From: Nitrospira sp. UW-LDO-01
GTDB taxonomy: Bacteria > Nitrospirota > Nitrospiria > Nitrospirales > Nitrospiraceae
Length of the DNA stretch: 59,458 nt
Assembly (NCBI GenBank): GCA_002254365.1
Contig: NIUT01000074.1
Coordinates: 1 to 59,458 of the forward strand
Direction: 5' to 3'
Part shown: positions 18,062 through 40,589 of the stretch, in pieces
Layout: every line of letters starts with the position of its first letter
Position numbering within the stretch: position 1 is the stretch's first letter
Program-made: the position numbers and the translations under genes
The notes under the pieces: model-generated
What the model was told of the DNA's origin: nothing
Databases searched by the model: none
The model's input: the letters and a program-made list of their open reading frames with translations, nothing else

Positions 18062-18090
18062 TTCTGCTATTGGGGGAAGAGGGGGTGGCT

Positions 18091-18861
18091 ATGAAAGCTG
18101 TCATTTTAGCAGGGGGCTTGGGTTCACGACTCAGCGAAGAAACTGTGGGACGCCCCAAGCCGATGGTCGAGATTGGAGGAAAACCGATCATCTGGCACAT
18201 CATGAAGATCTATTCCGCACAAGGAATCAACGAGTTCATCATCTGCCTTGGCTACAAAGGCTCGATGGTGAAGGACTATTTTGTCAACTACTCGATGTAT
18301 CGGTCGGATGTCACCATCGACATCGCTCACGACAAGGTTGAGGTTCATCAGAATCATGCGGAACCTTGGCGCGTGACGTTGGTGGATACCGGGGAGCATA
18401 CGTTAACCGGTGGGCGACTCAAACGCGTATCAGAGTATCTGCGAGGGGAGGAATCATTCTGCTGCACGTACGGAGACGGTGTCACGGATCTCGATATTCG
18501 CGCTGAAATCGCCTTTCATCAATCACATGGAAAGCTCGCGACAGTGTGTGCGGTCGTGCCGCCTGGTCGCTACGGAGCGCTCATCTTGGACAAACGGCAT
18601 GTGACGGGATTCAAAGAAAAACCGCCAGGAGACGGGGGACTCATCAATGGAGGCTTCTTTGTGCTTTCACCCAAAGTCATTGACCTGATTGATGGCGATC
18701 GGACCTCGTGGGAGGGGGAACCTCTGGATCGGCTTGCAAGCATGGGAGAATTGATGGCATTTGAACATCGTGGGTTTTGGCGCCCGATGGATACCCTTCG
18801 AGATAAAACTCAACTGGAAGAATTGTGGCAGTCCGGGTCCGCACCCTGGAAGGTGTGGTAA
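18091..18861 (+). CDS. rfbF: Glucose-1-phosphate cytidylyltransferase (RfbF-like)
   Basis: 256 aa. It would join CTP and glucose-1-phosphate to CDP-glucose, entry to CDP-deoxysugars. The nucleotide-binding loop ILAGGLGSRLSEETVGRPKP (from residue 5) and the RfbF-typical MVEIGGKPIIWHIMKIYS, YGDGVTDLDI and NGGFFVLSP are all present. Start chosen after GAGGGGGTGGCT. First gene of the cassette, under a sigma-54-like site. The usual partner CDP-glucose 4,6-dehydratase (RfbG) is not in the window, so the sugar's next step must be encoded elsewhere or differ. Confidence 0.9.
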   Translation: MKAVILAGGLGSRLSEETVGRPKPMVEIGGKPIIWHIMKIYSAQGINEFIICLGYKGSMVKDYFVNYSMYRSDVTIDIAHDKVEVHQNHAEPWRVTLVDTGEHTLTGGRLKRVSEYLRGEESFCCTYGDGVTDLDIRAEIAFHQSHGKLATVCAVVPPGRYGALILDKRHVTGFKEKPPGDGGLINGGFFVLSPKVIDLIDGDRTSWEGEPLDRLASMGELMAFEHRGFWRPMDTLRDKTQLEELWQSGSAPWKVW

Positions 18862-19022
18862 TGCCCACAAGAAGTTGCTCGGAATCAGCAATCCAGCTCG
18901 TGCATAGATTGGTGGTTCCTCACGCCAGGCGAGAAGAGGCTGGGGATGAGATACAGGAGCGTCATGCTGGCAGGGAGGAGAGGGTGTTTATGACAGCTGG
19001 TCACAAGGAGGTGGGTTCATGA
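18861..19022 (+). other. Possible 53-codon ORF bridging rfbF and the aminotransferase
   Basis: The frame opens at TAATG on the rfbF stop and closes by overlapping the aminotransferase ATG, so it is perfectly nested for coupled translation. Its last residues, RVFMTAGHKEVGS, faintly recall the Rossmann start of RfbG (RVFVTGHTGFKGS). It may be a remnant of a deleted dehydratase gene, or chance. Not claimed as a protein. Confidence 0.3.
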
Positions 19023-20287
19023 CGACGCGCGTTCGTGCCAGCAAGCCGTTCATCACCAACGCAGACTCTACGAAGTCCGCGGGTCTGAACAGACAAGGGA
19101 GTGGAGAGGTTTCGTTACCTCAAAAAATGCTGGAAAATGCGTATGACAGCAGTCCCCGAGGAAATGGTCTCAGAACGGCGCGCATCCGATATACCAAACC
19201 ATCCATCACGAGTGCTGAGGTGAATTACGTCATGGATGCAGCACGACATGGATGGGGAGAGCGGTGTTACGAGTACATCGATCTCTTCGAACAATTATTT
19301 CGTGCACATCTTGGAGTCAAGCACGCGATTGCCACGTCCAGCTGTACTGGCGCATTACACATGGGCTTGGCGGCACTTGGAGTCGGTCCAGGAGATGAGG
19401 TTATTCTTGCAGACATCAATTGGATCGCGTCTGCTGCGCCGATCACCTACCTCGGTGCTACGCCGGTGTTGGTGGATATCCTGCCGGATACATGGTGTCT
19501 CGATCCTGAAAAGGCCGATGCGGCCATTACTCCACGGACTAAGGCCATTATCGCAACACATCTCTATGGGAATCTCTGTGACATGGATCGTCTCCGTGCG
19601 CTTGGCCACCAATATGGCATTCCAATCATCGAGGACGCCGCGGAAGCCATCGGCTCCCTCTGGCGAGGGAAGCGGGCCGGATCGATGGGAACATTTGGAA
19701 CCTTCTCATTCCACGGGACAAAGACGCTCACCACCGGCGAGGGGGGAATGTTCGTGACGAACGATGATGCCCTCTACGAAAAAGTGGTGACCTTTTCAAA
19801 CCACGGGCGGGCACGGGGTGAAGCGCGACAGTTTTGGCCTGCCGAGATTGGATTTAAGTACAAACTATCCAATCTGCAGGCAGCGATTGGTTGCGCCCAG
19901 ATCGAGCGTGCGGAAGAACTCATCGCACGGAAGCGAGAAATATTTTTCTCCTACAAGCAGCGATTGAGTGGCTTGCCCTTGATCATGAATGATGAGCGGC
20001 CGGAGACGGTGAATGGGTGCTGGATGCCAACGGTCGTCATCGAGAAAGGGGTTCCATTTAACCGTGCTCTCTTACTGGAGTCTTTCAAGAGGGCTGGCAT
20101 AGATAGTCGCGTATTCTTTTGGCCGCTTTCCCAGACAGGACTGTTCAGGAAGATACACCACACTCCGGTGAGCTGCGATATTTCCCCCAGGGGAATCAAT
20201 CTTCCCTCATATCATGATCTGACGGGTGAGGAGATAAACCGTGTCGTCAACCCCATTGTCCGGTGCTTAGTGAGAGCTGCTGCCTGA
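19019..20287 (+). CDS. DegT/DnrJ/EryC1-type PLP aminotransferase
   Basis: 422 aa. The PLP lysine is Lys235 in SFHGTKTLTTGEGG, the perosamine-synthase-like form. It is Lys and not His, so this is a true sugar aminotransferase and not the RfbH-type 3-dehydrase. Other motifs: SSCTGALHMGLAALGVGPGD, HLYGNLCDMD, IEDAAEAIGS, KLSNLQAAIGCAQIE. A 50-residue N-terminal extension precedes the fold. AAGGAGGTGGGTTC is a strong ribosome site. Likely makes a 4-amino-4-deoxy sugar nucleotide from a 4-keto precursor. Confidence 0.88.
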   Translation: MTTRVRASKPFITNADSTKSAGLNRQGSGEVSLPQKMLENAYDSSPRGNGLRTARIRYTKPSITSAEVNYVMDAARHGWGERCYEYIDLFEQLFRAHLGVKHAIATSSCTGALHMGLAALGVGPGDEVILADINWIASAAPITYLGATPVLVDILPDTWCLDPEKADAAITPRTKAIIATHLYGNLCDMDRLRALGHQYGIPIIEDAAEAIGSLWRGKRAGSMGTFGTFSFHGTKTLTTGEGGMFVTNDDALYEKVVTFSNHGRARGEARQFWPAEIGFKYKLSNLQAAIGCAQIERAEELIARKREIFFSYKQRLSGLPLIMNDERPETVNGCWMPTVVIEKGVPFNRALLLESFKRAGIDSRVFFWPLSQTGLFRKIHHTPVSCDISPRGINLPSYHDLTGEEINRVVNPIVRCLVRAAA

Positions 20288-20482: not shown

Positions 20483-21925
20483 ATGAGCGGCGCGCAAGCC
20501 AAGCTGTTGCACTATTTATCCATCCATCGCTCCCGAGTGCTATTCCGGAATAGCGAAGGCCAGTGTCTGTTGTATGCGAAGGTGGCGGAATTAGCTGAGA
20601 CGCGAGCCTTTACGCGCATGCAGCGGCGTGTAGTGTTGTGTCTGGTCGAGAACGATCTTGCCGGTCTTGCGGGATATCTGGGGTTACTGGCTGCAGATGC
20701 CATTCCGTTAATGCTCAGTGTTGGGACGCCGTTCAAGCGGTTGCAGAGTCTTACGGTCTCTTATTCCCCTGGATGTGTATGGTTGCCGGAATCTAGAAGA
20801 AAGGAATTCGGTGAGGCGGCATGCCTGTTTGCCTTTGGCGGTTATTGTTTGATTGATCTCGACTCGCCGAGCTATGAGATTCACGAATCACTTGCATTAT
20901 TGCTCGGCACGTCTGGTAGCACCGGTAGCCCTCAGTTTGTCCGGCTGTCCCATGCGAATGTGTGGAGTAATGCGGAGTCTATTGCGCAGTATATGGGGTT
21001 GGATGAGGAGGAAGTCCCGATCACGACGCTGCCGCCCAGTTACACCTACGGACTCTCGATTCTTCATAGTCATGTAGTAACAGGCGCCACTATTGCTGTG
21101 ACGAAGACCACATTGTTCGACCGGCCATTTTGGGAGTTTGTTCGCGAGGTGGGAGCGACCAGCTTGGGGGGGGTACCGTACCACTATGAAATACTTGAGC
21201 GGTTGCGCTTCACAACAATGGATCTTCCTCGCTTGAGGACCCTGACACAGGCAGGTGGGCGCATGGAACCAGCAATGACCAGAAAGTATGCGCTTCATTG
21301 TGCCAGCCGCCGCATGCGGTATTTCACAATGTATGGACAAGCGGAAGCAACGGCCCGAATATCCTATTTACCCCCAATGAAAGCTGTCACCAAAGCCGGC
21401 AGCATTGGCGTGGCGATACCCGGTGGCAAGCTCTGGCTTGAGGATCAGGATGGGACTGTAATTGATGAATCTGGTGTGACCGGGGAACTTGTGTATCAGG
21501 GGGCGAATGTCTCGATGGGCTATGCCAACGGGCACCAAGACCTCGGCAAGGGAGATGAGCGACATGGAGTCTTGCGGACCGGCGATATGGCCCGGCGTGA
21601 TGAGGACGGTGATTATTACATCGTTGGTCGCTTGAAGCGGTTTATTAAGCTGTTTGGACATCGCGTGAACCTCGCTGATGTAGAGACATTTCTCTATGAG
21701 GAGGGTCATGTGGTGGCCTGTGCAGGTTGCGACGACGTTTTGGAAGTCTATGTACCTTACGAGGCCTCGGAGCAGGCTCCGCGGGTTAAGGCGTTGGTCG
21801 TCCAATACCTGAACGTGGCGTTGAAGGGGGTTGTCATTTATGGGGTTGAGGTCTTGCCACGTAATGACGCTGGCAAGGTGCAATATGCTGAATTAAGACC
21901 CCAGAACGGAACATGCTTGGCATGA
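20483..21925 (+). CDS. Acyl-AMP ligase (ANL superfamily)
   Basis: 480 aa. Activates a carboxylic acid as acyl-adenylate. The ATP-binding loop LLGTSGSTGSP is at 140-150. MYGQAEATARI is the A5-type motif, RTGDMARRDEDGDYYIVGR the hinge region, and NDAGKVQYAEL holds the C-terminal catalytic Lys. The chain is short for the family, with a reduced N-terminal region. It overlaps LuxE by the final codons. With the ACP downstream it plausibly loads an acyl group onto that carrier; the acid is unknown. Confidence 0.85.
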   Translation: MSGAQAKLLHYLSIHRSRVLFRNSEGQCLLYAKVAELAETRAFTRMQRRVVLCLVENDLAGLAGYLGLLAADAIPLMLSVGTPFKRLQSLTVSYSPGCVWLPESRRKEFGEAACLFAFGGYCLIDLDSPSYEIHESLALLLGTSGSTGSPQFVRLSHANVWSNAESIAQYMGLDEEEVPITTLPPSYTYGLSILHSHVVTGATIAVTKTTLFDRPFWEFVREVGATSLGGVPYHYEILERLRFTTMDLPRLRTLTQAGGRMEPAMTRKYALHCASRRMRYFTMYGQAEATARISYLPPMKAVTKAGSIGVAIPGGKLWLEDQDGTVIDESGVTGELVYQGANVSMGYANGHQDLGKGDERHGVLRTGDMARRDEDGDYYIVGRLKRFIKLFGHRVNLADVETFLYEEGHVVACAGCDDVLEVYVPYEASEQAPRVKALVVQYLNVALKGVVIYGVEVLPRNDAGKVQYAELRPQNGTCLA

Positions 21926-23010
21926 GGGCCCCGGACTTTTCCCAATGGCTTAATCTGGAGCCCTACGGGATGGAGGCAAGCAAGAAGTCGGCGTTGTTAG
22001 CCGGTGCGCTTCGTGAACTGACACGGTGGCATGCTGCAAAGTGCCAAGCGTATCAGCGGATACTGGCGCTACAAGGGGCTGACAGCGAGGCCATGACGAC
22101 ATTAGAGCAGGTGCCGTACCTCCCTGCCAGGCTGTTCAAGGAATTCGATCTGCTGAGCATTGATCGGTCTGAAGTATTTAAGACGATGACATCTTCTGGA
22201 ACGACTGAAAGTCAAGTTTCCAAGATCTATCTGGATCGTGCCACGGCGTCCTTTCAGACCAAGGTGTTGTCACGCCTGATGAGCCGACAGTTAGGGAAGC
22301 AACGGCTTCCTATGCTGGTGGTGGACTCTCCCGGCACGGTGAAGGAGCGATGGGCCTTCTCAGCCAGAGGTGCAGCCATATTGGGATTTTCGCTATATGG
22401 ACAGGATGTGACCTACGCGCTGAGTACCTCAATGAAATTGGATGTGCCTGCAGTCGAAGCCTTTCTCGATCGCCACAGAGACACACCGATCTTCATCTTT
22501 GGGTTTACGTTCATGCTGTGGCTGCATTGGGCGCTGCCACTGCAGCAGTTGGGCAAGGTCTTGCCGATTCATTCCGGTATCATTCTGCATGGTGGGGGGT
22601 GGAAAAAGTTAGAAGATCAGGGAGTGGACAACGAGACATTCCGAGTGGCCTTGCAGTCTTGCGTGGGGGGCATGAAGGTTGTCAACTACTATGGGATGGT
22701 CGAGCAAACCGGAGCGCTCTTCATGGAGTGTGAGGAAGGCTGGTTGCATGCTCCGGTCTATGCCGATGTTATTATCCGGGATCCGTACACATTTGGCGTG
22801 GCAGGGATCGGCCAAGAGGGGATCATTGAAGTTCTTTCTGTTGTCCCGCTCAGCTATCCAGGGCATGCATTGCTCACCGAAGACGTCGGTGTCCTTCTCG
22901 GTGAGGATGATTGTGCCTGTGGGCGACTGGGAAAGTACTTTCGAGTGATCGGGCGCGTTCCGAAAGCCGAAGCTCGTGGGTGTAGTGATACCTATGAAGC
23001 GCGTACCTGA
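21913..23010 (+). CDS. LuxE-like acyl-protein synthetase
   Basis: 365 aa from the first ATG; an ATG at 21922 overlapping the ligase stop is an alternative. LuxE adenylates a fatty acid and passes it as thioester to the reductase LuxC in the fatty-acid reductase complex. The family signature TMTSSGTTESQVSKIYLDR, IILHGGGWKK, VVNYYGMVEQTG and the C-terminal DDCACGRLGKYFRVIGR are present. It overlaps luxC at its 3' end, as in a complex-forming pair. No luciferase genes are present, so bioluminescence is not implied. Confidence 0.88.
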   Translation: MLGMRAPDFSQWLNLEPYGMEASKKSALLAGALRELTRWHAAKCQAYQRILALQGADSEAMTTLEQVPYLPARLFKEFDLLSIDRSEVFKTMTSSGTTESQVSKIYLDRATASFQTKVLSRLMSRQLGKQRLPMLVVDSPGTVKERWAFSARGAAILGFSLYGQDVTYALSTSMKLDVPAVEAFLDRHRDTPIFIFGFTFMLWLHWALPLQQLGKVLPIHSGIILHGGGWKKLEDQGVDNETFRVALQSCVGGMKVVNYYGMVEQTGALFMECEEGWLHAPVYADVIIRDPYTFGVAGIGQEGIIEVLSVVPLSYPGHALLTEDVGVLLGEDDCACGRLGKYFRVIGRVPKAEARGCSDTYEART

Positions 23011-24202
23011 CCTACCGGTAGAGATCCTCGTAGGAGGACGATTAAGTGACATCGTGGGACAGCCCCTGCGGCCGTACTCACATGAGGCCATCGCATTTCT
23101 TGCGGAACTCTCCAGTCGGCTGTTGGCCAATCCTGCAATCAGAATCTATCCAGATCTCGCAGGGTTTGCCTATTGGTGTCGAAAAGCAAATCTTCAGCGT
23201 CTGGCAAGAGGCAGGCATGGCCAAGAGCGAAGAATCGGTCGGGGCATCGCGTTTCATATTGCCCCTGCTAACGTGCCAGTCAATTTTGCATTCTCTCTGG
23301 GTATCGGCCTCCTCGCCGGAAATGCCAATATTGTCAGAGTGTCAGGCCAGAGGTATCCGCAAGTTGAGATCTTGTGCGCCGAACTGGAGCGAATCGCTAA
23401 ACAGCCTGATCATGAGCGAGTGGCGTCTATGCTGCGCGTCATCCTGTACCCTCATGATGATGCGATTACCGCTGCTCTGTCGGAGTCCTGCCATGCTCGT
23501 GTTCTCTGGGGTGGCGATAAGACGATTGCCCATCTGCGATCCATGCCAGTGTCGTCACGGTGTGTGGATGTGGTGTTTGCTGATCGGTACTCACTATGCG
23601 TGATGGATGCGAACGCCATACTGGCTGCAGACGACAAAGCGGTGGAGAGCCTTGCACAAGGATTTTACAACGATGTGTTCGTGCTGGATCAGAACGCTTG
23701 TTCATCTCCGCATCTGGTGTTGTGGCGCGGGGATGAGGCTGACGTGAATCAGGCGATGGTGAGGTTTTGGGAGGCAGTTGAACAGCGGTTGCGATCAAAG
23801 CCGCCCTTTCCCGTGATGCAAGCGCTAGATAAATACACCCACCTTTGCCGCGTAGCCATCCTGTTGGACTCATGCATGTCCGTTACGCGTCATCAGAATC
23901 TGATTTATCGTGTGCGGCTGAAGGAACTCTCATCGGGAATTGAACAGTATAAGGGGCAATATGGATTCTTTTTTGAGGCGGTTATCAAGGGCGTGGAATC
24001 TTTGAAAACTATCGTGGGTGAACGGTATCAGACTGTAACATGTTTTGGTGTTGATCCAGAGGAAGTCATTTCGCTCGTTGTGGAGAGGGGATGGACCGGT
24101 ATCGATCGGGTGGTGCCGGTTGGCAAGGCCCTTGATCTTGGTGTGGTATGGGATGGCTATCATCTGATCGAAAGTTTATCGAGGGTGGTGGCCGATTGTT
24201 AA
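22994..24202 (+). CDS. LuxC-like acyl-CoA/acyl-protein reductase
   Basis: 402 aa (a GTG at 22976 would add six residues). LuxC reduces an activated acyl group to an aldehyde with NADPH. The catalytic Cys is Cys236 in LDQNACSSPHL. The nucleotide-binding region has HIAPANVPVNFAFSLGIGLLAGN, and RVVWGG-type VLWGGDKTI follows. The C-terminal QTVTCFGVDPEEV block is family-typical. The start lies inside luxE, so the pair is coupled. In this setting the aldehyde is probably an intermediate for a sugar modification and not a light substrate. Confidence 0.88.
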   Translation: MKRVPDLPVEILVGGRLSDIVGQPLRPYSHEAIAFLAELSSRLLANPAIRIYPDLAGFAYWCRKANLQRLARGRHGQERRIGRGIAFHIAPANVPVNFAFSLGIGLLAGNANIVRVSGQRYPQVEILCAELERIAKQPDHERVASMLRVILYPHDDAITAALSESCHARVLWGGDKTIAHLRSMPVSSRCVDVVFADRYSLCVMDANAILAADDKAVESLAQGFYNDVFVLDQNACSSPHLVLWRGDEADVNQAMVRFWEAVEQRLRSKPPFPVMQALDKYTHLCRVAILLDSCMSVTRHQNLIYRVRLKELSSGIEQYKGQYGFFFEAVIKGVESLKTIVGERYQTVTCFGVDPEEVISLVVERGWTGIDRVVPVGKALDLGVVWDGYHLIESLSRVVADC

Positions 24203-24343
24203 TGCCATGTTGGTCAACAGCTACGGTTATCCAGCGAATAAAGAGAGAGGCACGTCCGCGAACCGTGAGAGCGCCATGCACATACCGCTGGTGGCATCAG
24301 GCTGTATCTGTTGGAGCGGGTTCTTGCGCAGAAAGGAAGTCAT

Positions 24344-24586
24344 ATGACAAATCGTGATAAATACGTGGCCGCTTTTCAGAGTACTCTCATGGTGGAAGAA
24401 GCGAAGTTGTCGGACTTAAAGTATCAAGATGTGGCGACATGGGATAGCGTAGGGCACATGGCGTTAATTGCCGCATTGGAAGCGGCGTTTGGGATAGAGT
24501 TGCATATCGACGACATTATTGACTTTTCAAGTTATACGGCAGGCCAAGACATTCTCGCTAAGTATAATATTCGGATGGAGGATTAG
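24344..24586 (+). CDS. Acyl carrier protein
   Basis: 80 aa. The phosphopantetheine attachment Ser is Ser35 in ATWDSVGHMALIAALE, with a short acidic C-terminal helix (HIDDIIDFSSYTAGQDI). Start chosen at the ATG after GAAAGGAAGTC. It lies 141 bp after luxC and 2 bp before the hot-dog gene. It is a dedicated carrier, distinct from a housekeeping AcpP, whose site reads DSLD. Likely partners are the AMP ligase, LuxE/LuxC and the FabZ-like protein. Confidence 0.9.
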   Translation: MTNRDKYVAAFQSTLMVEEAKLSDLKYQDVATWDSVGHMALIAALEAAFGIELHIDDIIDFSSYTAGQDILAKYNIRMED

Positions 24587-24588
24587 TT

Positions 24589-25065
24589 GTGGCGAGTCCA
24601 ATCCCTATGACGACGCTCGATATCACGCAGATCCTGGCATGTCAGCGTAATCGTTACCCCGTCTTGTTTCTTGACAAGGTTGTTGACCTCGTTCCAGGCG
24701 TCCGGGCTACCGGGCTGAAGTGTTATACGTACAATGAGTGGTTTTTCCCTGGACATTTTGACGACGAGCCCAATGTGCCAGGATTTGTCCAAATCGAGAG
24801 CTTGGTACAGACCTTCATTCTGACGTTTCTCTGCCAGGAAGAGTATGCCGGGATGAAGACGAATTTTGTGTCGATGAATAATGTGACATTTAAACGCAAG
24901 ATTGTTCCCGGTGATGTTATGCGCATTGATGCCGAGCTGAAGTCCTTTAAGCGGGGCATAGCGACGGGCTGTGCAGAGAGTAAGGTGGATGGAGAGCCTG
25001 CGTGCCGTGCCGAGTTTGTCGTGGCCGTTCCAGCAATTCTGAACCAGTACAAACCCAAGGCATAG
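24589..25065 (+). CDS. FabZ-like hot-dog dehydratase
   Basis: 158 aa from a GTG with GGAG 8 bp upstream; ATG at 24607 is possible. FabZ signatures: NRYPVLFLDKV, NEWFFPGHFDDEPNVPGFVQIE, with the catalytic pair His56 and Glu70 intact. The usual His of the HRYP motif is Asn21. FabZ dehydrates 3-hydroxyacyl-ACP. No ketosynthase or ketoreductase is nearby, so the substrate may be a hydroxyacyl-ACP taken from elsewhere, or the fold may serve as thioesterase or hydratase. Confidence 0.85.
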   Translation: MASPIPMTTLDITQILACQRNRYPVLFLDKVVDLVPGVRATGLKCYTYNEWFFPGHFDDEPNVPGFVQIESLVQTFILTFLCQEEYAGMKTNFVSMNNVTFKRKIVPGDVMRIDAELKSFKRGIATGCAESKVDGEPACRAEFVVAVPAILNQYKPKA

Positions 25066-25079
25066 TTGGAGCCAAGCGC

Positions 25080-26864
25080 ATGCGGGTGGCCGACTACATT
25101 ATGCAGAGGTTGGTATGTGCAGGTGTGCGGCACGTGTTTCAGGTTACTGGGCGAGGCGCGTTGTTTTTAAACGATGCGGTGGCAAAGCACGCGGATCTAA
25201 CGCCCGTGTCCCTTCATCATGAGCAAGCCTGTGCATTCGCCGCGATTGGGTATGCCGAGCAGACAGAGCGCATAGGCGTGTGCCTGGTCTCGACCGGTTG
25301 CGCCGCGACGAATACCCTCACCGGGGTTCTATCGGCATGGCAAGATGCCGTGCCATGCATCTTCATCTCCGGGCAACATATCTTGCGTGAGACCAGCCGG
25401 TTTACAGGAATACCGTTGCGAACGTATGGACAGCAAGAGGCCGATATTGTCAGCCTCGTGTCACCGATGACGAAGTATGCCACGATGCTGACGGCTCCAG
25501 AGGATATTGAAGAGGTCATGGAGAAGGCCTTGTGGCATGCACAGACCGGACGCAAGGGGCCGGTCTGGCTAGATATTCCGCTTGATTTGCAAAGTGCCCT
25601 GATGCCATTAGGGCGGGCTGTTGTTTCACCTCACGGACTCGATGACCGTCCGTTGCCGAAGGAGGAAGACGTTCAAAATGTGGTAGTGGCGTTGCGCACT
25701 GCCCAACGACCTGTGGCCCTCATCGGTAGCGGTGTGCGAGCCGCACGAGCTCACACACAACTTAAGGAGTTCGTCGAACGGTGGAAGATTCCTGTGACCT
25801 ACACGGCAGCCGCGCCAGACAGCTATGGCACGGCTCATCCACTCTCGATAGGGTCAGTTGGAGCCATGGGCTGTTCACGTGCAGGTAACTTTGCAGTTCA
25901 AAACGCTGATTTTGTTCTTGTGCTCGGCTCTCGACTAACCGCGTTGACGACAGGACCTGACTTTGACAAGTTTGCTCGAGCTGCACGTGTCGCCGTAGTG
26001 GACATCGATCCTGTGGAACATAGCAAGAAGTCGATCCGTATTGATCAGTTGATCCATAGCGACCTCGGTCTCTTCCTGACGCGGCTCAATCAGATAGAGG
26101 CGCATTCTGTAGCCGCTTCCTGGATCAGCAAATGCCAACACTGGAAGCAACTGTTTCGCCCGGTCGAGCCAGAATTTTCATGCAGTCATGCAGTGGACTT
26201 GTATGAGCTGGCGGAGTGTCTGAGTGAGGTTCTTCCGAACCCCTCTACGTTCGTGACCGATTCTGGTCTAGCGGAGGTCATTCTTCCCACCAATATCCGC
26301 TTTGCGGATGGGATGAAGTGCATACATCCCACTTCACAGGGGGCGATGGGATTTGCGTTGCCCGCGGCAATCGGTGCTCAACATGCCAATGCACAGCCGG
26401 TCGTCGTCGTCGTAGGGGACGGCTCTATCATGATGAATCTACAAGAACTGGAAACTATCCGTTATCAAAAGTTGCCGATCAAGATCATTGTGGTAAACAA
26501 CAATGGCTATGCCATTATCCGCCGACGACAGCGGGAGTTGTTTCGCCATCGTACGATTGGCACTGATCCTGACAACGGGGTCAGTTGCACGGATTTCTCA
26601 CGTGTGGCGGACTGTTTTGGATTGCAGTATAGCCGCGTCGAACATCCACGTCAGATGACTTCGGCGCTTACCGCAATGCTGGCCCATGATGGGCCTGTCT
26701 TGTGTGAAGTCATGGGGCGTGTGGATCAAGGCTATATTGAACTGGGACAGGCTCGTAGCGCACGGGACCATCGCTTTATACGCCGGCCCTTGGAAGACCA
26801 AGAGCCATACCTTTCTCGCGATCTCTTCCTGAATGAGATGGTTGTGAGTCCTATTGATCAGTAG
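25080..26864 (+). CDS. ThDP-dependent enzyme, acetolactate-synthase-like
   Basis: 594 aa from the ATG after TTGGAGCC. It has the three-domain architecture of the acetohydroxyacid synthase group: an N-terminal PYR domain with catalytic Glu48 (VSLHHEQACAFAAIGYAE), a central domain (about 190-330), and a C-terminal PP domain with the Mg-ThDP motif VVGDGSIMMNLQELETIRYQ...NNNGY. In sugar pathways such an enzyme (YerE) adds a two-carbon acetyl unit to a CDP-ketosugar. With RfbF and an acyl/aldehyde module in the same cassette, a carboligation making a branched or ketol side chain is a reasonable inference. Confidence 0.85.
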   Translation: MRVADYIMQRLVCAGVRHVFQVTGRGALFLNDAVAKHADLTPVSLHHEQACAFAAIGYAEQTERIGVCLVSTGCAATNTLTGVLSAWQDAVPCIFISGQHILRETSRFTGIPLRTYGQQEADIVSLVSPMTKYATMLTAPEDIEEVMEKALWHAQTGRKGPVWLDIPLDLQSALMPLGRAVVSPHGLDDRPLPKEEDVQNVVVALRTAQRPVALIGSGVRAARAHTQLKEFVERWKIPVTYTAAAPDSYGTAHPLSIGSVGAMGCSRAGNFAVQNADFVLVLGSRLTALTTGPDFDKFARAARVAVVDIDPVEHSKKSIRIDQLIHSDLGLFLTRLNQIEAHSVAASWISKCQHWKQLFRPVEPEFSCSHAVDLYELAECLSEVLPNPSTFVTDSGLAEVILPTNIRFADGMKCIHPTSQGAMGFALPAAIGAQHANAQPVVVVVGDGSIMMNLQELETIRYQKLPIKIIVVNNNGYAIIRRRQRELFRHRTIGTDPDNGVSCTDFSRVADCFGLQYSRVEHPRQMTSALTAMLAHDGPVLCEVMGRVDQGYIELGQARSARDHRFIRRPLEDQEPYLSRDLFLNEMVVSPIDQ

Positions 26865-26872
26865 AAGTAATC

Positions 26873-27907
26873 ATGGCGACACGAGTGTTGCAAAATGGGC
26901 GGTCTGTTGGCGATTACCTGGCACCCTATATCGTCGCCGAGTTGAATACCAGTCACTTTGGCGATATGGATGTAGCCCGTGCCATGATCGACCAGGCTCA
27001 ACTCGCCGGATGTGACTGTGTGAAATTCCAGTCCTGGAGTGCGGAGACGCTCTATGGCAGAAAGTATTATGCAGTCAACAAGATTGCAAAGCGTCTTGTT
27101 TCTAAGTTGGCGTTGGACAGCGCGCAACTCAAACATCTGGCACAGTATGCCGCATCGAGACGTATCGATTTTGCTTCGACCCCATATTCAATCGAAGAGG
27201 CTGAGTTTTTGGTAGTTGAGTGCAGTGTTCCCTTTCTAAAGATCGCCTCCATGGAACTGAATAATCTTCCGTACTTGTCCCAGCTAGCCAGGTTGGGAGT
27301 GCCGCTTGTGTTGTCTACAGGCATGGGGACGATTGAAGAGATTCGAGAAGCGGTGCATACGATTGAGGCGGCAGGGAACGACCGGTTAATTATTCTTCAT
27401 TGCACATCGGTCTATCCGGCGACGCCAGCGATCATTCAACTGAACAATATTGTGGGACTGAGAAGCGAATTTCCTCAATATCCGATTGGATATTCAGACC
27501 ATAGCATCGGGAGCGAGATCCCTGCAGCCTCTATCGCGTTAGGTGCCTGTCTTATTGAGAAACACTTCACACTGGATCGTGCTCGAATCGGGATGGATAA
27601 TCAAATGGCAACAGAGCCAAAAGAAATGCACGCTATGGTCCGTGCATGCCACAGCGTCCATGAGGCGTTGGGTGGAACTAAGCGCGTGGTGAGCCCTGAA
27701 GAGGCTGTCCAAATTCCCAAGATGAGGCGAAGCCTCATCAATAAGTTACCATTGAAAGCCGGGCATATCCTGACGCTGGACGATCTCGATGCGAAGCGAC
27801 CAGGTACAGGGCTGGCTCCGATGCTGCTGCCATCTCTTGTGGGACGAAAGCTCAGACGTGATCTTGATGCAGAGACGGTGCTTGCCTGGCAGGATCTTGA
27901 AGGCTAA
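26873..27907 (+). CDS. neuB: NeuB/SpsE-type nonulosonic-acid synthase family
   Basis: 344 aa. NeuB enzymes condense phosphoenolpyruvate with an N-acylhexosamine to a nine-carbon sugar. The TIM-barrel motifs are present: VAELNTSHFGDMDVARAMID, CVKFQSW, FASTPYSIEEAEFL, KIASMELNN, STGMGTIEEI, HCTSVYPA, IGYSDHSIGSEIP and EKHFTLD. A C-terminal SAF domain (about 285-340) starts MRRSLINKLPLKAGHIL. The first Asn-His pair common in NeuB reads NTSH. No CMP-transferase (NeuA) or epimerase is in the window. Confidence 0.88.
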   Translation: MATRVLQNGRSVGDYLAPYIVAELNTSHFGDMDVARAMIDQAQLAGCDCVKFQSWSAETLYGRKYYAVNKIAKRLVSKLALDSAQLKHLAQYAASRRIDFASTPYSIEEAEFLVVECSVPFLKIASMELNNLPYLSQLARLGVPLVLSTGMGTIEEIREAVHTIEAAGNDRLIILHCTSVYPATPAIIQLNNIVGLRSEFPQYPIGYSDHSIGSEIPAASIALGACLIEKHFTLDRARIGMDNQMATEPKEMHAMVRACHSVHEALGGTKRVVSPEEAVQIPKMRRSLINKLPLKAGHILTLDDLDAKRPGTGLAPMLLPSLVGRKLRRDLDAETVLAWQDLEG

Positions 27908-27947
27908 CTATAAGGCGGTCTGTGGGGCTAGGGGCAGGGGAGATACT

Positions 27948-28598
27948 GTGCTGAACTCCTCCATTCAGATGCTGCTTAATGAGGTTGTGGCGGGGACCCG
28001 GCCGTTCTCGCTTGAGATTTCTAGTGAAGCGGGGGTTCTTGAGGGGGTCTTGCGTCCAGTGACGGTTGCGCACCTTGACGATCACGAGATCATACGGAGG
28101 CTCACGGACTGGAGGAATCAGAGCATGGAGAAGTTCTTGAGCCAGTTTGTGGCTACGCCAGAACGGACGAGGAATTGGATGCGGAATGTACTCTTGAAGA
28201 CGCAAGGACAGATGCTCTTCTTAGTGTGCGTGAAGGATCAAGTGGTGGGGCATTACGGTTTTAAGAATCTCACTTCGTCTGAGGTGTTGCTCGACAATGC
28301 GTTGCGTGGGGAACGCGGCGGTCATCCCAAGCTGTTCGTGTGGGCTGGACAAACACTGGTGCAGTGGTTGTTCCGTGAAGCCGTGGTGCAACGGGTGTAT
28401 GCCTATGTGCTGGCGGACAATGCAGTTTCGATCATGATGAACAAACAAATCGGTTTTGGCGGATGGCAGCGTCATCCGCTGACGAAATGCGTGAGAGAGG
28501 GCGAGGTTGTCTGGGAGATGGGATCTGAAGGTGGTACGAGCGCCGAGGGGCGTTATTGCTTCAAGCTGCTGATCGAGCGGTCCTTAGGCATCATCTGA
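27948..28598 (+). CDS. GNAT-family N-acyltransferase
   Basis: 216 aa from a GTG after GGGGCAGGGGA. The N-terminal half carries RPVTVAHLDDHEIIRRLTDW. The acetyl-CoA fold follows with GHYGFKNLTSS, LFVWAGQTLVQWLFREA, VYAYVLADNAVSIMMNKQIGF and GGWQRHPL, the PseH-like order of GNAT motifs. A sugar N-acylation role is likely from the position after neuB. The acyl donor might be the cassette's own ACP rather than acetyl-CoA. Confidence 0.75.
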   Translation: MLNSSIQMLLNEVVAGTRPFSLEISSEAGVLEGVLRPVTVAHLDDHEIIRRLTDWRNQSMEKFLSQFVATPERTRNWMRNVLLKTQGQMLFLVCVKDQVVGHYGFKNLTSSEVLLDNALRGERGGHPKLFVWAGQTLVQWLFREAVVQRVYAYVLADNAVSIMMNKQIGFGGWQRHPLTKCVREGEVVWEMGSEGGTSAEGRYCFKLLIERSLGII

Positions 28599-28650: not shown

Positions 28651-29457
28651 ATGGAACCGATTCGTCAGTTTTTCCAAGAAGTCCAAGAGAATATTAAGGG
28701 GCAGGCAGCGGACCATGACCTTCAGGCGCTTTCGAGAACGTGGACGCGCGATGTGGCTCGCCACAAGTGGGCCTACAACTTTCAATGGATGGGCCGGCCC
28801 GCAATACAGTTTCCCAATGATGCCTGGGCTATGCAAGAACTCATCTGGAAAGTGAGACCAGATCTCATCATTGAATCGGGTATTGCCCATGGAGGGTCGC
28901 TCATTTATTACGCCTCGCTTCTTGCGATGCTCGACATGTGTGACGCGGTGGAGTCCGGGGCTCCCTGCCATCCCAAGCAAACCCGCCGTAAGGTCATCGG
29001 ATTGGATATCGATATTCGGGCGCACAATCGGCAGGCCATCGAGCAGCACCCCATGAGCAATTGGATTCACATGATCGAGGGATCCAGTATTGAGCCGGAG
29101 ACCATGGAGCAAGTGCACAACATCGCAAAACACGCGACATCAATATTGGTCAGCCTGGATTCTAACCATACCCATGATCATGTGCTTGCCGAACTGAAAG
29201 CCTATGCACCGTTGGTCACGCCAGGAAGCTATTGTGTCGTGTTTGATACGATTGTCGAAGACATGCCTGCAGCCTTATCGGCGAATCGTCCCTGGGGGCC
29301 TGGTAACAGTCCCAAGACCGCAGTCTGGGAGTACCTCAAGACACACCCTGAGTTTACAATCGATACCAGCATTCATCATAAACTGCTGATTACCGTGGCT
29401 CCTGATGGGTATCTTAAACGTGTTGAAGAAAAGATAGATCGGGCTGGCCGTCGGTAG
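28651..29457 (+). CDS. CmcI-like (cephalosporin hydroxylase family) protein
   Basis: 268 aa. Family motifs: RHKWAYNFQWMGRPAIQFP, the SAM-binding glycine loop IIESGIAHGGSLIYYASLL, GLDIDIRAHN, and the metal/substrate site SLDSNHTHDHVLAEL. The family, also labelled rhamnosyl O-methyltransferase, contains SAM-dependent methyltransferases of sugars and antibiotics. A sugar O-methylation here is an inference. AGGAGGAAG-like GGGAGAGGATGT precedes the ATG. Last gene of the cassette. Confidence 0.82.
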   Translation: MEPIRQFFQEVQENIKGQAADHDLQALSRTWTRDVARHKWAYNFQWMGRPAIQFPNDAWAMQELIWKVRPDLIIESGIAHGGSLIYYASLLAMLDMCDAVESGAPCHPKQTRRKVIGLDIDIRAHNRQAIEQHPMSNWIHMIEGSSIEPETMEQVHNIAKHATSILVSLDSNHTHDHVLAELKAYAPLVTPGSYCVVFDTIVEDMPAALSANRPWGPGNSPKTAVWEYLKTHPEFTIDTSIHHKLLITVAPDGYLKRVEEKIDRAGRR

Positions 29458-30049
29458 AATAGAATACGCATGTAGTAAGGGATCGGAGACAGGGGACGGT
29501 TTTATGCCATCAACCTCGTCAGCCAGAAGCTGCATATTAGTTCCCTCTGCAACAGTCGATGACTCGCATTGCCGTGAAGCTCTCCAACTGAGAATGCCGT
29601 AGTAAGATTTGGTCGGTCGACGAAGTTGTACCGGGGATATGTCTTTGACGCGCCCTATCCTTTGGTGGATGATTCTTCCGCTTTGACCGGAAAAATCTGC
29701 CGGTCACTCGCCTGAAAGTTCTCGAATACCTCATTTTGCTGGGTATAAAACCTTTCCTCCATTGGCACGCAGTTTGAATTCCACCTTTGAGGGAGGCGGG
29801 GTTGTGATGACCGCAGTTGTGATTGTCGGGCGAATCAGGATTGAGAGTCAGTTGTGGTGAGAAGGTGTGACAGAGTCTTGTCCCTGTGATCTTGTGGAGC
29901 TGCAGTAGCGCAAGACCGGTGGTGCCGGGTTCTCTGCGGCGCGATCAAGAATGTGAGAGCGAAATGCGAACTCAGTACGGACGGCTACCGATGGTGGCGC
30001 CGAATGGACATTTGTAGCGCATCATGTCGGAGTGATTGAAGGAGGGGGT
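29458..30049. other. Long intergenic region before the giant glycosyltransferase
   Basis: About 590 bp without a credible gene. It holds a GACAGGGGACGG repeat core (29488-29503), a sigma-54-like site (29763-29778) and a 270-nt untranslated stretch after it, which would be a long mRNA leader. No riboswitch class was recognised. Confidence 0.5.
29763..29778 (+). promoter_or_regulatory. Sigma-54-like promoter of the glycosyltransferase block
   Basis: TGGCACGCAGTTTGAA: perfect -24 element, 12-nt offset, -12 element TTGAA. With its flank TTC it is the twin of the element at 18046-18064. It lies about 270 bp before the GT start. Confidence 0.5.
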
Positions 30050-33000
30050 ATGGCCCGATTCATCGTTCTCATTCCAACACTCAATGGCGCTCGGACTCTG
30101 GACGATACGCTGGCGACATGCTGTGCGCAAAGCCATGAAGATGTCCGAATCGTTGTCAGCGACAATTGGAGCGAGGACACGACTGCCGATCTTGTACGGA
30201 TGTGGCAGGCTCGAGACCGACGGATCGAGTATCTGCGGCCTGATCGGCGACTGAGTATGACATCACATTGGGAATTTGCCTTGCGTTCGCTCATACAGGA
30301 CGACGCATACGTGGTCGTGCTCGGATGTGACGATGTGCTGATGCCGGGCGCATTGCGGTACGCGAATGAATTGCTGGGCATGTTCCCGGAGTCGCAGTGT
30401 TTGGCGTGGAATACCAATTATTATCACACGCATGATCTGCAGGATCCCTCTGCCGCAGGTCGACTTCTGTTGCATCTCGGGGGGGACATCGAGGTGCGTG
30501 AGGCTCGAGTCAGTCTCCGACACGTCGCGTCGGGGCGCACGCACTACTTGGGGCTGCCAAACGTATACCACGGATTGATCCATACGGCGCTTCTACGGGA
30601 ATTGGCGCACATGCCAGGGCCCATGATTCGATCAATGAATCCGGACATCTATTTGTCGCTCGCTGTCTGTTGTCTTCTGCAACGGTACATCTTTGTCCGC
30701 GAACCGCTGTCGCTCAACGTGATTTCAAGACAAAGCAATGGGTTCTCTCATTCGAACGACCATGCCGATAAGGAGGTTGGCCGTCGGGTCATGCAGGACA
30801 ACGATCGTCCGTACCATCCTGATCTTCCGTTTAGCGACGATCTCCATATTGCGCATGTCGAGTGCCTGCTGCAGGTTCAGGATGCAGGGCTGCTTCCGCA
30901 TGAGATCCCGATTGAATTCAAGCATATGTTCGGACAGGCCATAAGGCACACCTACGTGTGCTATCAATCCCAGACACGCGAGAAGCGCCTCGGGCAACTG
31001 CAGAGGATTGCCGATAGACACGCGCTGTTGCCCTTCATGGAGGACGTGGAGGCTGCCTGTCAGAATAAGGACATTGTACGGCTCACGGCATTGGTGCCAA
31101 CAACCTGGGTGCATCCCCCCTATGACTATGATGCGCAGATTGGGCGCGATCTGGTCTTGAGCCCCCAGGGAGCGGCTCGTCTGGCTGGCGAGCTGATCCG
31201 TACGGATCGACTCGCACGCAGCCGGTGCCTGAACCAGGCAGGGCGCTTCTTGGACAAGGCCAGGGCTGAACATGACCAATCCAAGCTGGCGACATTGGCG
31301 GAACAGTATCGACACATGATTTCCTCCACGGTTGGTGAATTGTGGAGCCGCCACGATTTCATCAGCTGTTACATCAGCAACGTTAAGAGTCGTTCTCTGG
31401 CTTTCAACCCGGCTTCCTATTTGTGGTTGTTGAGCAGTACGCAAGAGGAAGCAAAAGCACCGGCCAAGTCTCCAGAGTCGATAATCACGCAACGAGGAGG
31501 AGGTGCCGGTATCGCTCCTTCAACCAAAGTGAGCTCGTCGAATAAACCTGCCGAGGTACGGAGCGTGGATGGACGCCAATATAAAGCGCCCCTACGCCTC
31601 TCTATTTTCGTCGCTGATGCGAACAGTGGGGAGGCGCGACTCGGAATTCCACACTATTGCGGACAAGGTCGTTATGGATGGAAGGGGACGTACATCTCGG
31701 CAAGAAACGAATCGGTCGAAGCAGGGCCTGAATATGTATGGCTGATCCAGCGGGCCCCATGGGTAGCAGATGAAGTTCTTGAGCGGGCACAGAGAAGCGG
31801 TACCCGAGTTGTCCATGATCTCGATGACTTGCTCTGGGAAATTCCGGAGGATAATCCGAACAAGGCGGTCTTTACAGACTCACGAATTGAGGTGCTCTTT
31901 CGGCAGCTGAACAGAGCTGATCAAGTTACGGTATCGACCGAGCCGCTTGCGCACGAATTGTCACAGAAAGGGATTCGCGCCCTGGTACTGCCGAATTGCG
32001 TGGCACCGGAGCGATGGGCACAGTTACGTCCTGTGAGGCGTGCAGGGAAGCGTCCGAGGGTCGGTTGGGCAGGGCAGCGCAGCGTTCATGCTTCTGATTT
32101 GAAACTATTGCGTCAAGTGATGGATGACCTTGGCGATGAGGTGGAGTGGGTGTTTCTTGGGGATACTCCGGTGTTTGCCCGAGCGCCCGGACGACTGGTT
32201 GAAAGCTTTCCCATGGTGCCAATACAGAACTATCCGGCCCAATTGGCTGCGATGAATTTAGATCTGGCGTTGGCTCCATTAGCCATGAACCGATTCAACG
32301 AGGCTAAAAGCGATATCCGGCTGTTGCATTACGGGGCACTGGGATATCCGGTGGTCGCGACCGATATCGCTCCGCATCGACAGGCTCCGGTCAAATTGGT
32401 ACCGAACCATGTGGCTGCCTGGGTTGAGGCGATCCGTGAACGGATCGCTGACCCTGATGCGGCAGCACGAGAAGGTGAGCGACTGCGCGAATGGGTGTTC
32501 GCCAGTCGGTCGATCGAGGTGTGGATCGCCAAGTATGCGGAGGCCTGGTTTGGGTGTAGTCGTGACGATAAAGAGATGGTTGCGGCGGCAGGCAGTCGTG
32601 CCACGGTGTCGCAGGTGCCGACGTTCTCATGCTCGATCATCATGCCGGTTCTCAATAACGTGGAATTGACCAAGCAATCCCTGACCGCGCTCGCAGAGGT
32701 GACGGACGGGTGTGAGTATGAGGTGATCGTCGTCGATAATCACTCCACCGACGGTACTCAAGAGTTTCTGTCTTCCCTAGGAGGTGACGTCCAGATCATT
32801 CGCAATAATGAGAATCGCGGCTTTGCCAAAGCCTGTAATCAAGGGGCGCAAGCCGCACGTGGAAAGTATCTGGTCTTTTTAAACAACGACACGATTCCCA
32901 TCAAAGGCTGGTTGAATGCGCTCGTACAAGAGGTCGAAGCCCACCAGGACGTTGGTGCGGTGGGCAGTAAGTTACTCTATGCCGATGGAACCGTTCAGCA

Positions 33001-39761: not shown

Positions 39762-40589
39762 ATGGCTCTTATCGTTAACAACAATCCTGCATCCATTGCG
39801 GCTCAGCGGAACCTCTCGATTAACACGCTCAGCTTGAACCGTTCGGTTGAGCATTTATCATCCGGTCTTCGAATCACACGCGCTGCGGATGATGCCGCTG
39901 GTCTTGGACTGTCGGAGTCCTTGAGGGCGCAGATCCGTAGTATCAACCAGGCGACGCGTAATGCCAATGATGGCATTAGTTTGACGCAGATCGCCGACGG
40001 GGCGGCTGCGACCATTGGTTCGCTGTTGGCACGGCTTCGCGAGCTGTCGTCCCAGTCCGCGAGCGGCACGGTGGGTAATACTGAGCGCTCCTACATTGAC
40101 CAGGAGTTTCTCGCGCTGCGTTCAGAAATTGATCGTATCGCTCAGGTGACCGAATTCAACGGTCAGGCACTGACAAGTGGTTCATCGATCAGCTTCTCCA
40201 TCGCGATCGGGTTCCGGAGCGGAGCGGGGAACACGCTGAGCTTGGACCTCAATGATATCCAGGTCAGCTCGCTGGGCCTGAACTCGGTGAATGTGTCCAC
40301 CGCAGCCAATGCTACAAGCGCATTGGCCAATATCGATAATGCGATCAGCGCCATTGCAACGGCACGAGCCGAATACGGTTCGATTCAGAACCGGTTCGAG
40401 GCGACAATTGCCAATCTGCAGGTGACGAGTGAGAATCTTACCTCTGCAGAATCACGGATCCGCGATGCGGACATCGCGCTTGAGACGTCCATCTTCACCA
40501 AGAATCAGATCTTGGTGCAGGCCGGTATCGCAACGTTGGCGCAGGCCAACACGCTACCGCAACAAGCGCTGGCGTTACTCAGAGGATAA
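39762..40589 (+). CDS. fliC: Flagellin FliC, short form
   Basis: 275 aa. It consists almost only of the conserved D0/D1 ends: N-terminal MALIVNNNPASIAAQRNLSI, LSSGLRITRAADDAAGLGLS, C-terminal SRIRDADIALETSIFTKNQI and QANTLPQQALALLRG. The variable D2/D3 region is nearly absent. Ser/Thr-rich surface stretches (SSQSASGTVGNTERS and TSGSSISFS) are possible glycan sites. Strong ribosome site AAGGAGGAAGGG. Its sigma-28 promoter and likely CsrA/FliW control fit a late gene. Confidence 0.96.
   Translation: MALIVNNNPASIAAQRNLSINTLSLNRSVEHLSSGLRITRAADDAAGLGLSESLRAQIRSINQATRNANDGISLTQIADGAAATIGSLLARLRELSSQSASGTVGNTERSYIDQEFLALRSEIDRIAQVTEFNGQALTSGSSISFSIAIGFRSGAGNTLSLDLNDIQVSSLGLNSVNVSTAANATSALANIDNAISAIATARAEYGSIQNRFEATIANLQVTSENLTSAESRIRDADIALETSIFTKNQILVQAGIATLAQANTLPQQALALLRG

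Follow-up and report, generated by a model that had tools for sequence, protein, structure and literature searches.

The window, i.e., the whole stretch of 59,458 nucleotides that was analysed, is contig C74 of the Nitrospira sp. UW-LDO-01 genome (3.9 Mb in 230 contigs, 99.4% complete), whose content was assessed by family-by-family profile searches of the contigs. It contains a co-directional run of genes from rfbF to a cmcI-like gene, referred to here as the cassette, which is embedded among flagellar genes. The features are as follows.

18070..18861, + strand: RfbF, glucose-1-phosphate cytidylyltransferase (TIGR02623, 448.7 bits, cut-off 300)
19019..20287, + strand: DegT-family PLP aminotransferase, 422 aa (Pfam 1.9e-120; Schiff-base Lys kept, GTKTLT)
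20483..21925, + strand: AMP-forming acyl ligase, 480 aa, with a TSGSTG motif (Pfam 2.4e-31)
21913..23010, + strand: LuxE-family acyl-protein synthetase, 365 aa (Pfam 5.4e-47)
22976..24202, + strand: LuxC-family acyl-thioester reductase, 408 aa, with the NACSSP cysteine motif; would supply the acceptor aldehyde (Pfam 1.8e-29)
24311..24586, + strand: acyl carrier protein (ACP)-like protein, 91 aa (phosphopantetheine-site WDSV motif; no Pfam or NCBIfam match)
24589..25065, + strand: FabZ-like hotdog dehydratase, 158 aa (His of GHF and Glu of IES kept, as read from the sequence)
25080..26864, + strand: YerE-like ThDP-dependent carboligase, 594 aa (domains, residues, tree and structure)
26873..27907, + strand: NeuB-family PEP-condensing synthase with SAF domain, 344 aa; would supply the donor (Pfam NeuB 4.8e-72)
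27870..28598, + strand: GNAT-type acetyltransferase (Pfam 4.1e-08; start uncertain, the ORF opening at 27789)
28651..29457, + strand: CmcI/rhamnosyl O-methyltransferase-like protein (Pfam 6.5e-93)
39762..40589, + strand: flagellin, 3' of the cassette and its glycosyltransferases, the probable target of the pathway (ORF listing)

In agreement with the first-pass annotation, the cassette is opened by rfbF, contains luxC (together with luxE), and holds the ThDP enzyme gene between the FabZ-like gene, 14 bp upstream, and the neuB gene, 8 bp downstream, with neither ilvN nor ilvC in the cassette. The NACSSP motif of LuxC was present in 20 of 24 cases. A scan for promoters and terminators gave no more sites than were found in shuffled sequences. 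A 1400-aa multi-domain glycosyltransferase is encoded after the cassette (30032-34234), and transferase-like ORFs follow as far as the flagellin gene (by reading); these are likely the transfer machinery. At the left edge of the window, ORFs resembling pieces of an IS3-type transposase (125-595 and 1341-1724) lie beside flgF/flgG-like genes.

The ThDP ORF occupies exactly positions 25080-26864 of the forward strand and codes for 594 amino acids plus a stop, without internal stops. An in-frame GTG upstream, at 25002, overlaps the FabZ-like gene, and relatives match over their full length when aligned from the ATG at 25080. The acetohydroxyacid synthase (AHAS) fold ascribed to the protein earlier was corroborated by all three Pfam domains of ThDP enzymes, far over cut-off (N 4e-31, M 1e-30, C 9e-38), and by the presence of Glu48 (HHEQ) and the GDGS...NNNGY motif. 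Residues Glu48, Asp447 and Asn474 were invariant among 27 aligned relatives.

The earlier proposal that this protein does not make acetolactate as a biosynthetic enzyme was upheld. With the AHAS model TIGR00118 it scored 326.2 bits versus a cut-off of 538.35, while the genome's own IlvB, found on contig C10 and followed by the only IlvN of the genome, scored 840.8 bits; the genome thus possesses another acetolactate synthase with an adjoining IlvN. In AHAS, Arg276 binds the acceptor and Trp464 is the gate residue. In the window protein Leu289 replaces the former (Arg276 of E. coli AHAS II) and Arg483 the latter. In the tree with IlvB and YerE suggested in the first-pass annotation, which comprised 79 rows and was built by a quick method with SH-aLRT support only, its reference rows being aligned stretches from a PDB sequence search and not full chains, the protein did not cluster with IlvB. 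It was found in a 31-row clade of Lux-cassette enzymes (SH-aLRT 100) distinct from AHAS, to which the genome's own IlvB belonged, and this clade was on the side of the YerE-like enzyme JanthE (SH-aLRT 99). Both the AHAS and the YerE-side groups were strongly supported; the placement of PpYerE was unsure owing to its long branch. Identity as IlvB was therefore rejected on model score, acceptor residues, tree position and ilvN linkage: the fold, the ThDP motif and the catalytic Glu are common to the window enzyme and biosynthetic IlvB/IlvG, but the former fails all four of these. The window enzyme is a YerE-like ThDP carboligase and not a housekeeping acetolactate synthase.

YerE had been named as the relevant relative, and the closest proteins were indeed YerE-like carboligases by sequence, tree and structure. 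The best PDB sequence match was JanthE (2e-106). With an AlphaFold model of the enzyme (pLDDT 84.6, pTM 0.88) as query, the top three matches of a structure search were all JanthE (Z 42.1, rmsd 3.1, 574 aligned); AHAS structures ranked next at Z 39.9, so close that the structural ranking alone would not settle YerE-like versus AHAS. JanthE (PDB 8rph/8rpi/8rpj) is a YerE-like lyase from Janthinobacterium sp. HH01 which joins 2-oxo acids to aldehyde or ketone acceptors (PMC12188165). The two proteins are also alike in a C-terminal tail with a PLED motif and differ in that JanthE has CDG where the window enzyme has the canonical GDG, and in the replacement of V121 and P293 of JanthE (PDB numbering) by Gln118 and Leu289, respectively.

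Seventy-nine loci were collected by a scan of public genomes. Close relatives of the ThDP enzyme (42-87% identity) were encoded in Nitrospirota, Pseudomonadota, Bacillota, Bdellovibrionota, Fidelibacterota and the SAR324 cluster, yet at E < 1e-100 the gene was present in only four of the 147 Nitrospiraceae genomes sampled, two of the four being more distant types; this wide phylum range together with rarity in Nitrospiraceae suggests horizontal spread. The nearest relatives of the cassette were from Nitrospira. In a plasmid collection only distant ThDP matches were found (30-32%), called ilvG where annotated. Two other Nitrospiraceae, L121 (G057) and L097 (G139), carry a more distant YerE-like gene, which in L121 sits with RfbF-RfbG-RfbH in a conventional YerE-type cluster.

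Among the 31 clade loci, several of which end at contig ends so that gene counts are affected, the constant set consisted of the AMP ligase (28 loci), LuxE (27), LuxC (27), ACP (26), NeuB (26) and FabZ (23). With the DegT proteins of the two related Nitrospira cassettes (L004 and L022), which are 86% identical to each other, the DegT protein of the window shared only 58-60% identity, whereas most neighbouring genes showed 80-93%; it looks as if another homologue has taken the place of the original one. In distantly related bacteria, pairs of genes for a split transketolase are repeatedly met in the vicinity of the cassette (L016, L019, L116 and L117, the last two by reading), and these could possibly provide a further C2-transfer step.

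The main clue to the function of the enzyme, which was not taken up in the first-pass annotation, is its paired, co-inherited NeuB. In 23 of the 26 well-flanked clade relatives, for which 4 kb or more of sequence was present to either side, neuB lies directly 3' of the ThDP gene. Pairwise distances of the ThDP and NeuB proteins were correlated with a Mantel r of 0.93 (26 loci), which no other cassette gene reached; the values with ThDP were 0.91 for GNAT (n = 15), 0.83 for LuxC, 0.81 for RfbF, and lower for the others. ThDP-linked NeuB proteins formed a clade of their own (100/99) apart from canonical NeuB, and canonical neuB beside PseF-like genes occurs as a separate gene in L018 and L073.

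The window NeuB, the only one in the genome, keeps the equivalents of the PEP, metal and catalytic residues of N. meningitidis NeuB (Glu25, Lys53, Lys129, Ser132, Ser154, His215, His236 and Arg314), and the equivalent of Asp247 as well. Asp247 and Arg314 contact the ManNAc-type sugar substrates. Since both equivalents are kept, the aldehyde used by the window NeuB may be sugar-like, and the residue pattern leaves room for a protein that may make a true nonulosonic acid. No CMP-nonulosonate cytidylyltransferase was found in the genome, in which both CTP_transf_3 matches were KdsB and IspD, and no PF01973 match that would reveal a Maf transferase was found in the 99.4% complete assembly, from which a contig may be missing. 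With neither enzyme in the genome, it is improbable that the NeuB product follows the customary CMP-sugar route, and an ordinary CMP-nonulosonate pathway was disfavoured. Diverged NeuB proteins encoded beside YerE-like genes in L037 (8482-9570), L076 and L082 (8888-9997) have no equivalents of Arg314 and Asp247, the loss of which suggests a non-sialic substrate.

The exceptions to the NeuB pairing pointed to the donor. In all 26 well-flanked loci a synthase or aldolase forming a 2-oxo acid was encoded within 3.5 kb of the ThDP gene (23 NeuB, two DmpG, one HMGL-like). L023 and L025 have no NeuB, and an acetylating acetaldehyde dehydrogenase and a 4-hydroxy-2-oxovalerate aldolase, both over the NCBIfam equivalog cut-offs, are encoded nearby. 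L117 has an HMGL-like aldolase in the place of NeuB, the assignment of which is based on 30% identity to an HMGL protein confirmed with Pfam, no NCBIfam match being obtained at E 1e-30. Outside the clade, L048, L070, L119 and L120 show a similar replacement, and 27 of the 36 YerE-like loci with room have an HpaI-like, HMGL-like, DmpG or diverged NeuB gene, a figure that is softer since the queries came partly from the same loci and the commonest type, HpaI-like, is a weak Pfam match. The L070 protein is the nearest neighbour of JanthE in the tree, and its gene adjoins that of an acetaldehyde dehydrogenase; unlike the window enzyme, it sits with this dehydrogenase and an aldolase and not with NeuB and Lux genes. 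In L069 (9368-13693) a single HMGL-like aldolase is encoded between two ThDP enzymes that differ from each other (ThDP-aldolase-ThDP). Literature searches on the pairing of aldolases with YerE-like enzymes, and on flagellin glycosylation in Nitrospira, gave nothing on point.

4-Hydroxy-2-oxo acids are the products of NeuB, DmpG and HpaI alike, and the exchange of NeuB for aldolases fits this donor chemistry. JanthE accepts 4-hydroxy-2-oxovalerate as well as pyruvate (PMC12188165). ErwE, the YerE-like erwiniose synthase of Pectobacterium atrosepticum, uses 4-hydroxy-2-oxobutanoate to -hexanoate, i.e., the NeuB/DmpG product class, and not pyruvate, as donors (PMC12247030); it differs in its acceptor, CDP-4-keto-3,6-dideoxyglucose, the pathway to which is missing in the window genome. 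The donor of the window ThDP enzyme is thus likely a 4-hydroxy-2-oxo acid rather than pyruvate, a point missed in the first-pass annotation. The residues separating NeuB-linked from aldolase-linked enzymes include R25, E104, T115, Q118 and R483, of which Q118 corresponds to V121 of JanthE, an engineered substrate-contact position, and R483 to the gate Trp of AHAS. The Q118 and R483 changes would be in line with an altered substrate; the differences at R25, E104, Q118 and R483 follow the tree and are thus weak, non-independent evidence.

Two acceptors had been put forward, a CDP-ketosugar and an aldehyde from LuxC. Formation of a CDP-4-ketohexose needs RfbG, the CDP-glucose 4,6-dehydratase. In the window genome no RfbG was found over cut-off (best 79 bits versus 278), nor in those of the two related Nitrospira with the cassette (L004, 61 bits at best; L022, 181 bits) or in eight of 15 non-Nitrospira cassette genomes (L015, L017-L021, L023 and L073); the L013 genome has an RfbG fragment at a contig end. 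The RfbH model gave the DegT protein 163 of the required 423 bits, and the kept Schiff-base Lys marks it as an aminotransferase and not an RfbH/E1-type dehydrase. Of the CDP-ketosugar set the genome therefore has RfbF, lacks RfbG, and has a DegT that is not RfbH-like; the missing RfbG weakens the proposal of a CDP-ketosugar acceptor in this organism. RfbF itself (18070-18861) is retained in all three Nitrospira cassettes, none of which comes with a CDP-glucose 4,6-dehydratase over cut-off.

The aldehyde proposal was strengthened in that LuxC, LuxE, ACP and the AMP ligase accompany the enzyme across phyla; the part of acceptor source is ascribed to LuxC from gene content. LuxC and LuxE are kept in L023 and L025, where acetaldehyde dehydrogenase already provides the aldehyde of the aldolase, which suggests that the LuxC aldehyde more probably serves the ThDP enzyme as acceptor than the aldolase as substrate. 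A LuxC-made aldehyde is thus the favoured acceptor.

We tentatively propose, at somewhat less than even confidence, that the ThDP carboligase and the adjacent NeuB are a two-enzyme unit in which an oxo-acid donor is joined to the LuxC aldehyde for the modification of flagellin. NeuB would condense PEP with an aldehyde to a 4-hydroxy-2-oxo acid, which the ThDP enzyme would decarboxylate to an acyl anion and join to a carbonyl acceptor, most likely an aldehyde derived from an ACP-bound acyl group by way of the AMP ligase, ACP, FabZ, LuxE and LuxC. The product would be an alpha-hydroxyketone chain, which DegT could aminate, GNAT acylate and the CmcI-like enzyme methylate before its placement on the flagellin glycan. 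Against this proposal are the sugar-contact residues kept in NeuB, and the role of FabZ is not accounted for. A bolder form, possible though doubtful, makes NeuB a dedicated donor factory: three carbons would be added from PEP, CO2 lost, and the C2-extended unit coupled to an aldehyde that the bioluminescence-type LuxE/LuxC supply from ACP, so that the cassette would be a mobile chain-building module, spread across several phyla, whose product would represent a flagellar glycan constituent of a new class.

The kept sugar-binding residues of NeuB, the acceptance of pyruvate by JanthE and the common occurrence of nonulosonic acids on flagellin could also be explained by two separate branches, NeuB making an ordinary nonulosonic acid for flagellin while an acyloin is formed from pyruvate and the LuxC aldehyde by the ThDP enzyme. 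We consider this unlikely, since the genome has neither a NeuA-type cytidylyltransferase nor Maf, NeuB and ThDP are the most tightly co-inherited pair of the cassette, NeuB is replaced by aldolases, and in L018 and L073 canonical NeuB-PseF pairs are encoded by genes of their own. Even less probable is the reaction of YerE proper, in which acetyl from pyruvate would be transferred to a CDP-4-keto-6-deoxyhexose at C4, RfbF having started the route to this hexose, and a branched sugar of the yersiniose type would result. The enzyme is on the YerE-like side of the tree, rfbF opens the cassette, and in Chromobacterium, Burkholderiales and rhizobial relatives RfbF-RfbG-RmlC-C-methyltransferase genes adjoin it, so that a ketosugar acceptor is possible in those lineages; however, RfbG is wanting in the genomes named above, DegT is a Lys-bearing aminotransferase and not RfbH, and no role would be left for NeuB and the Lux genes.

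A PigD-like Stetter reaction, with the acyl anion 1,4-added to an enoyl-ACP made by FabZ, the thioester reduced by LuxC to an aldehyde and this aminated by DegT, would employ FabZ, ACP, LuxC and DegT, all of which are present and in identical order in relatives. It is improbable given that the closest relatives are YerE-like 1,2-carboligases and that FabZ is absent from L019, L023, L025, L116 and L117, which keep ThDP, LuxC and LuxE. A housekeeping or catabolic acetolactate synthase has in its favour the same fold and the NCBIfam AHAS models, the best family matches of the protein though under cut-off, and is hardly conceivable in view of its score, its acceptor residues, its separate clade and the linkage of IlvN to the other IlvB.

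The proposed unit of carboligase and NeuB resembles parts of known flagellin systems. Chromobacterium (L106) and a Burkholderiales genome (L114) likewise have flagellin genes in the neighbourhood of the cassette. In the sfmABCDE operon of Shewanella oneidensis, sfmA (NeuB) adjoins sfmB (ThDP), as in the cassette, and their deletion abolishes flagellin modification, in which a sugar resembling pseudaminic acid bears a C9H16O7 unit free of nitrogen (PMC3765264); the operon differs in that no Lux, ACP or AMP-ligase genes are reported and its NeuB has 290 aa. In 394 genomes of the order expected to contain Shewanella, the scores of the ThDP matches at E < 1e-68 marked them as cassette-type, YerE-like or AHAS-like, and no sfm architecture was recognised among them, a minority of the loci being inspected. 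The flagellin glycosylation islands of Aeromonas group II and enterobacteria carry ACP, AMP ligase, LuxE and LuxC (PMC7874193, PMC4875605) in common with the cassette, but a ThDP gene is unmentioned and a liposugar is proposed by the authors. A description of the cassette was not found in the literature searched, outside which lay most subscription journals, including the survey of YerE-like clusters by Krug et al. (2024).

The YerE-like family is pursued for the preparation of chiral tertiary alcohols, and the natural donors and acceptors of most members are unknown; genome context points to the donor, by way of an adjoining aldolase or synthase making 4-hydroxy-2-oxo acids. The cassette in addition offers a role for the unexplained LuxC, LuxE and ACP genes of flagellin islands and for the NeuB-ThDP pair of Shewanella. 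If the proposal is true, NeuB enzymes would not always be part of sialic-acid-type pathways, and automatic 'ilvB' and 'neuB' calls in such islands would mislead pathway predictions.
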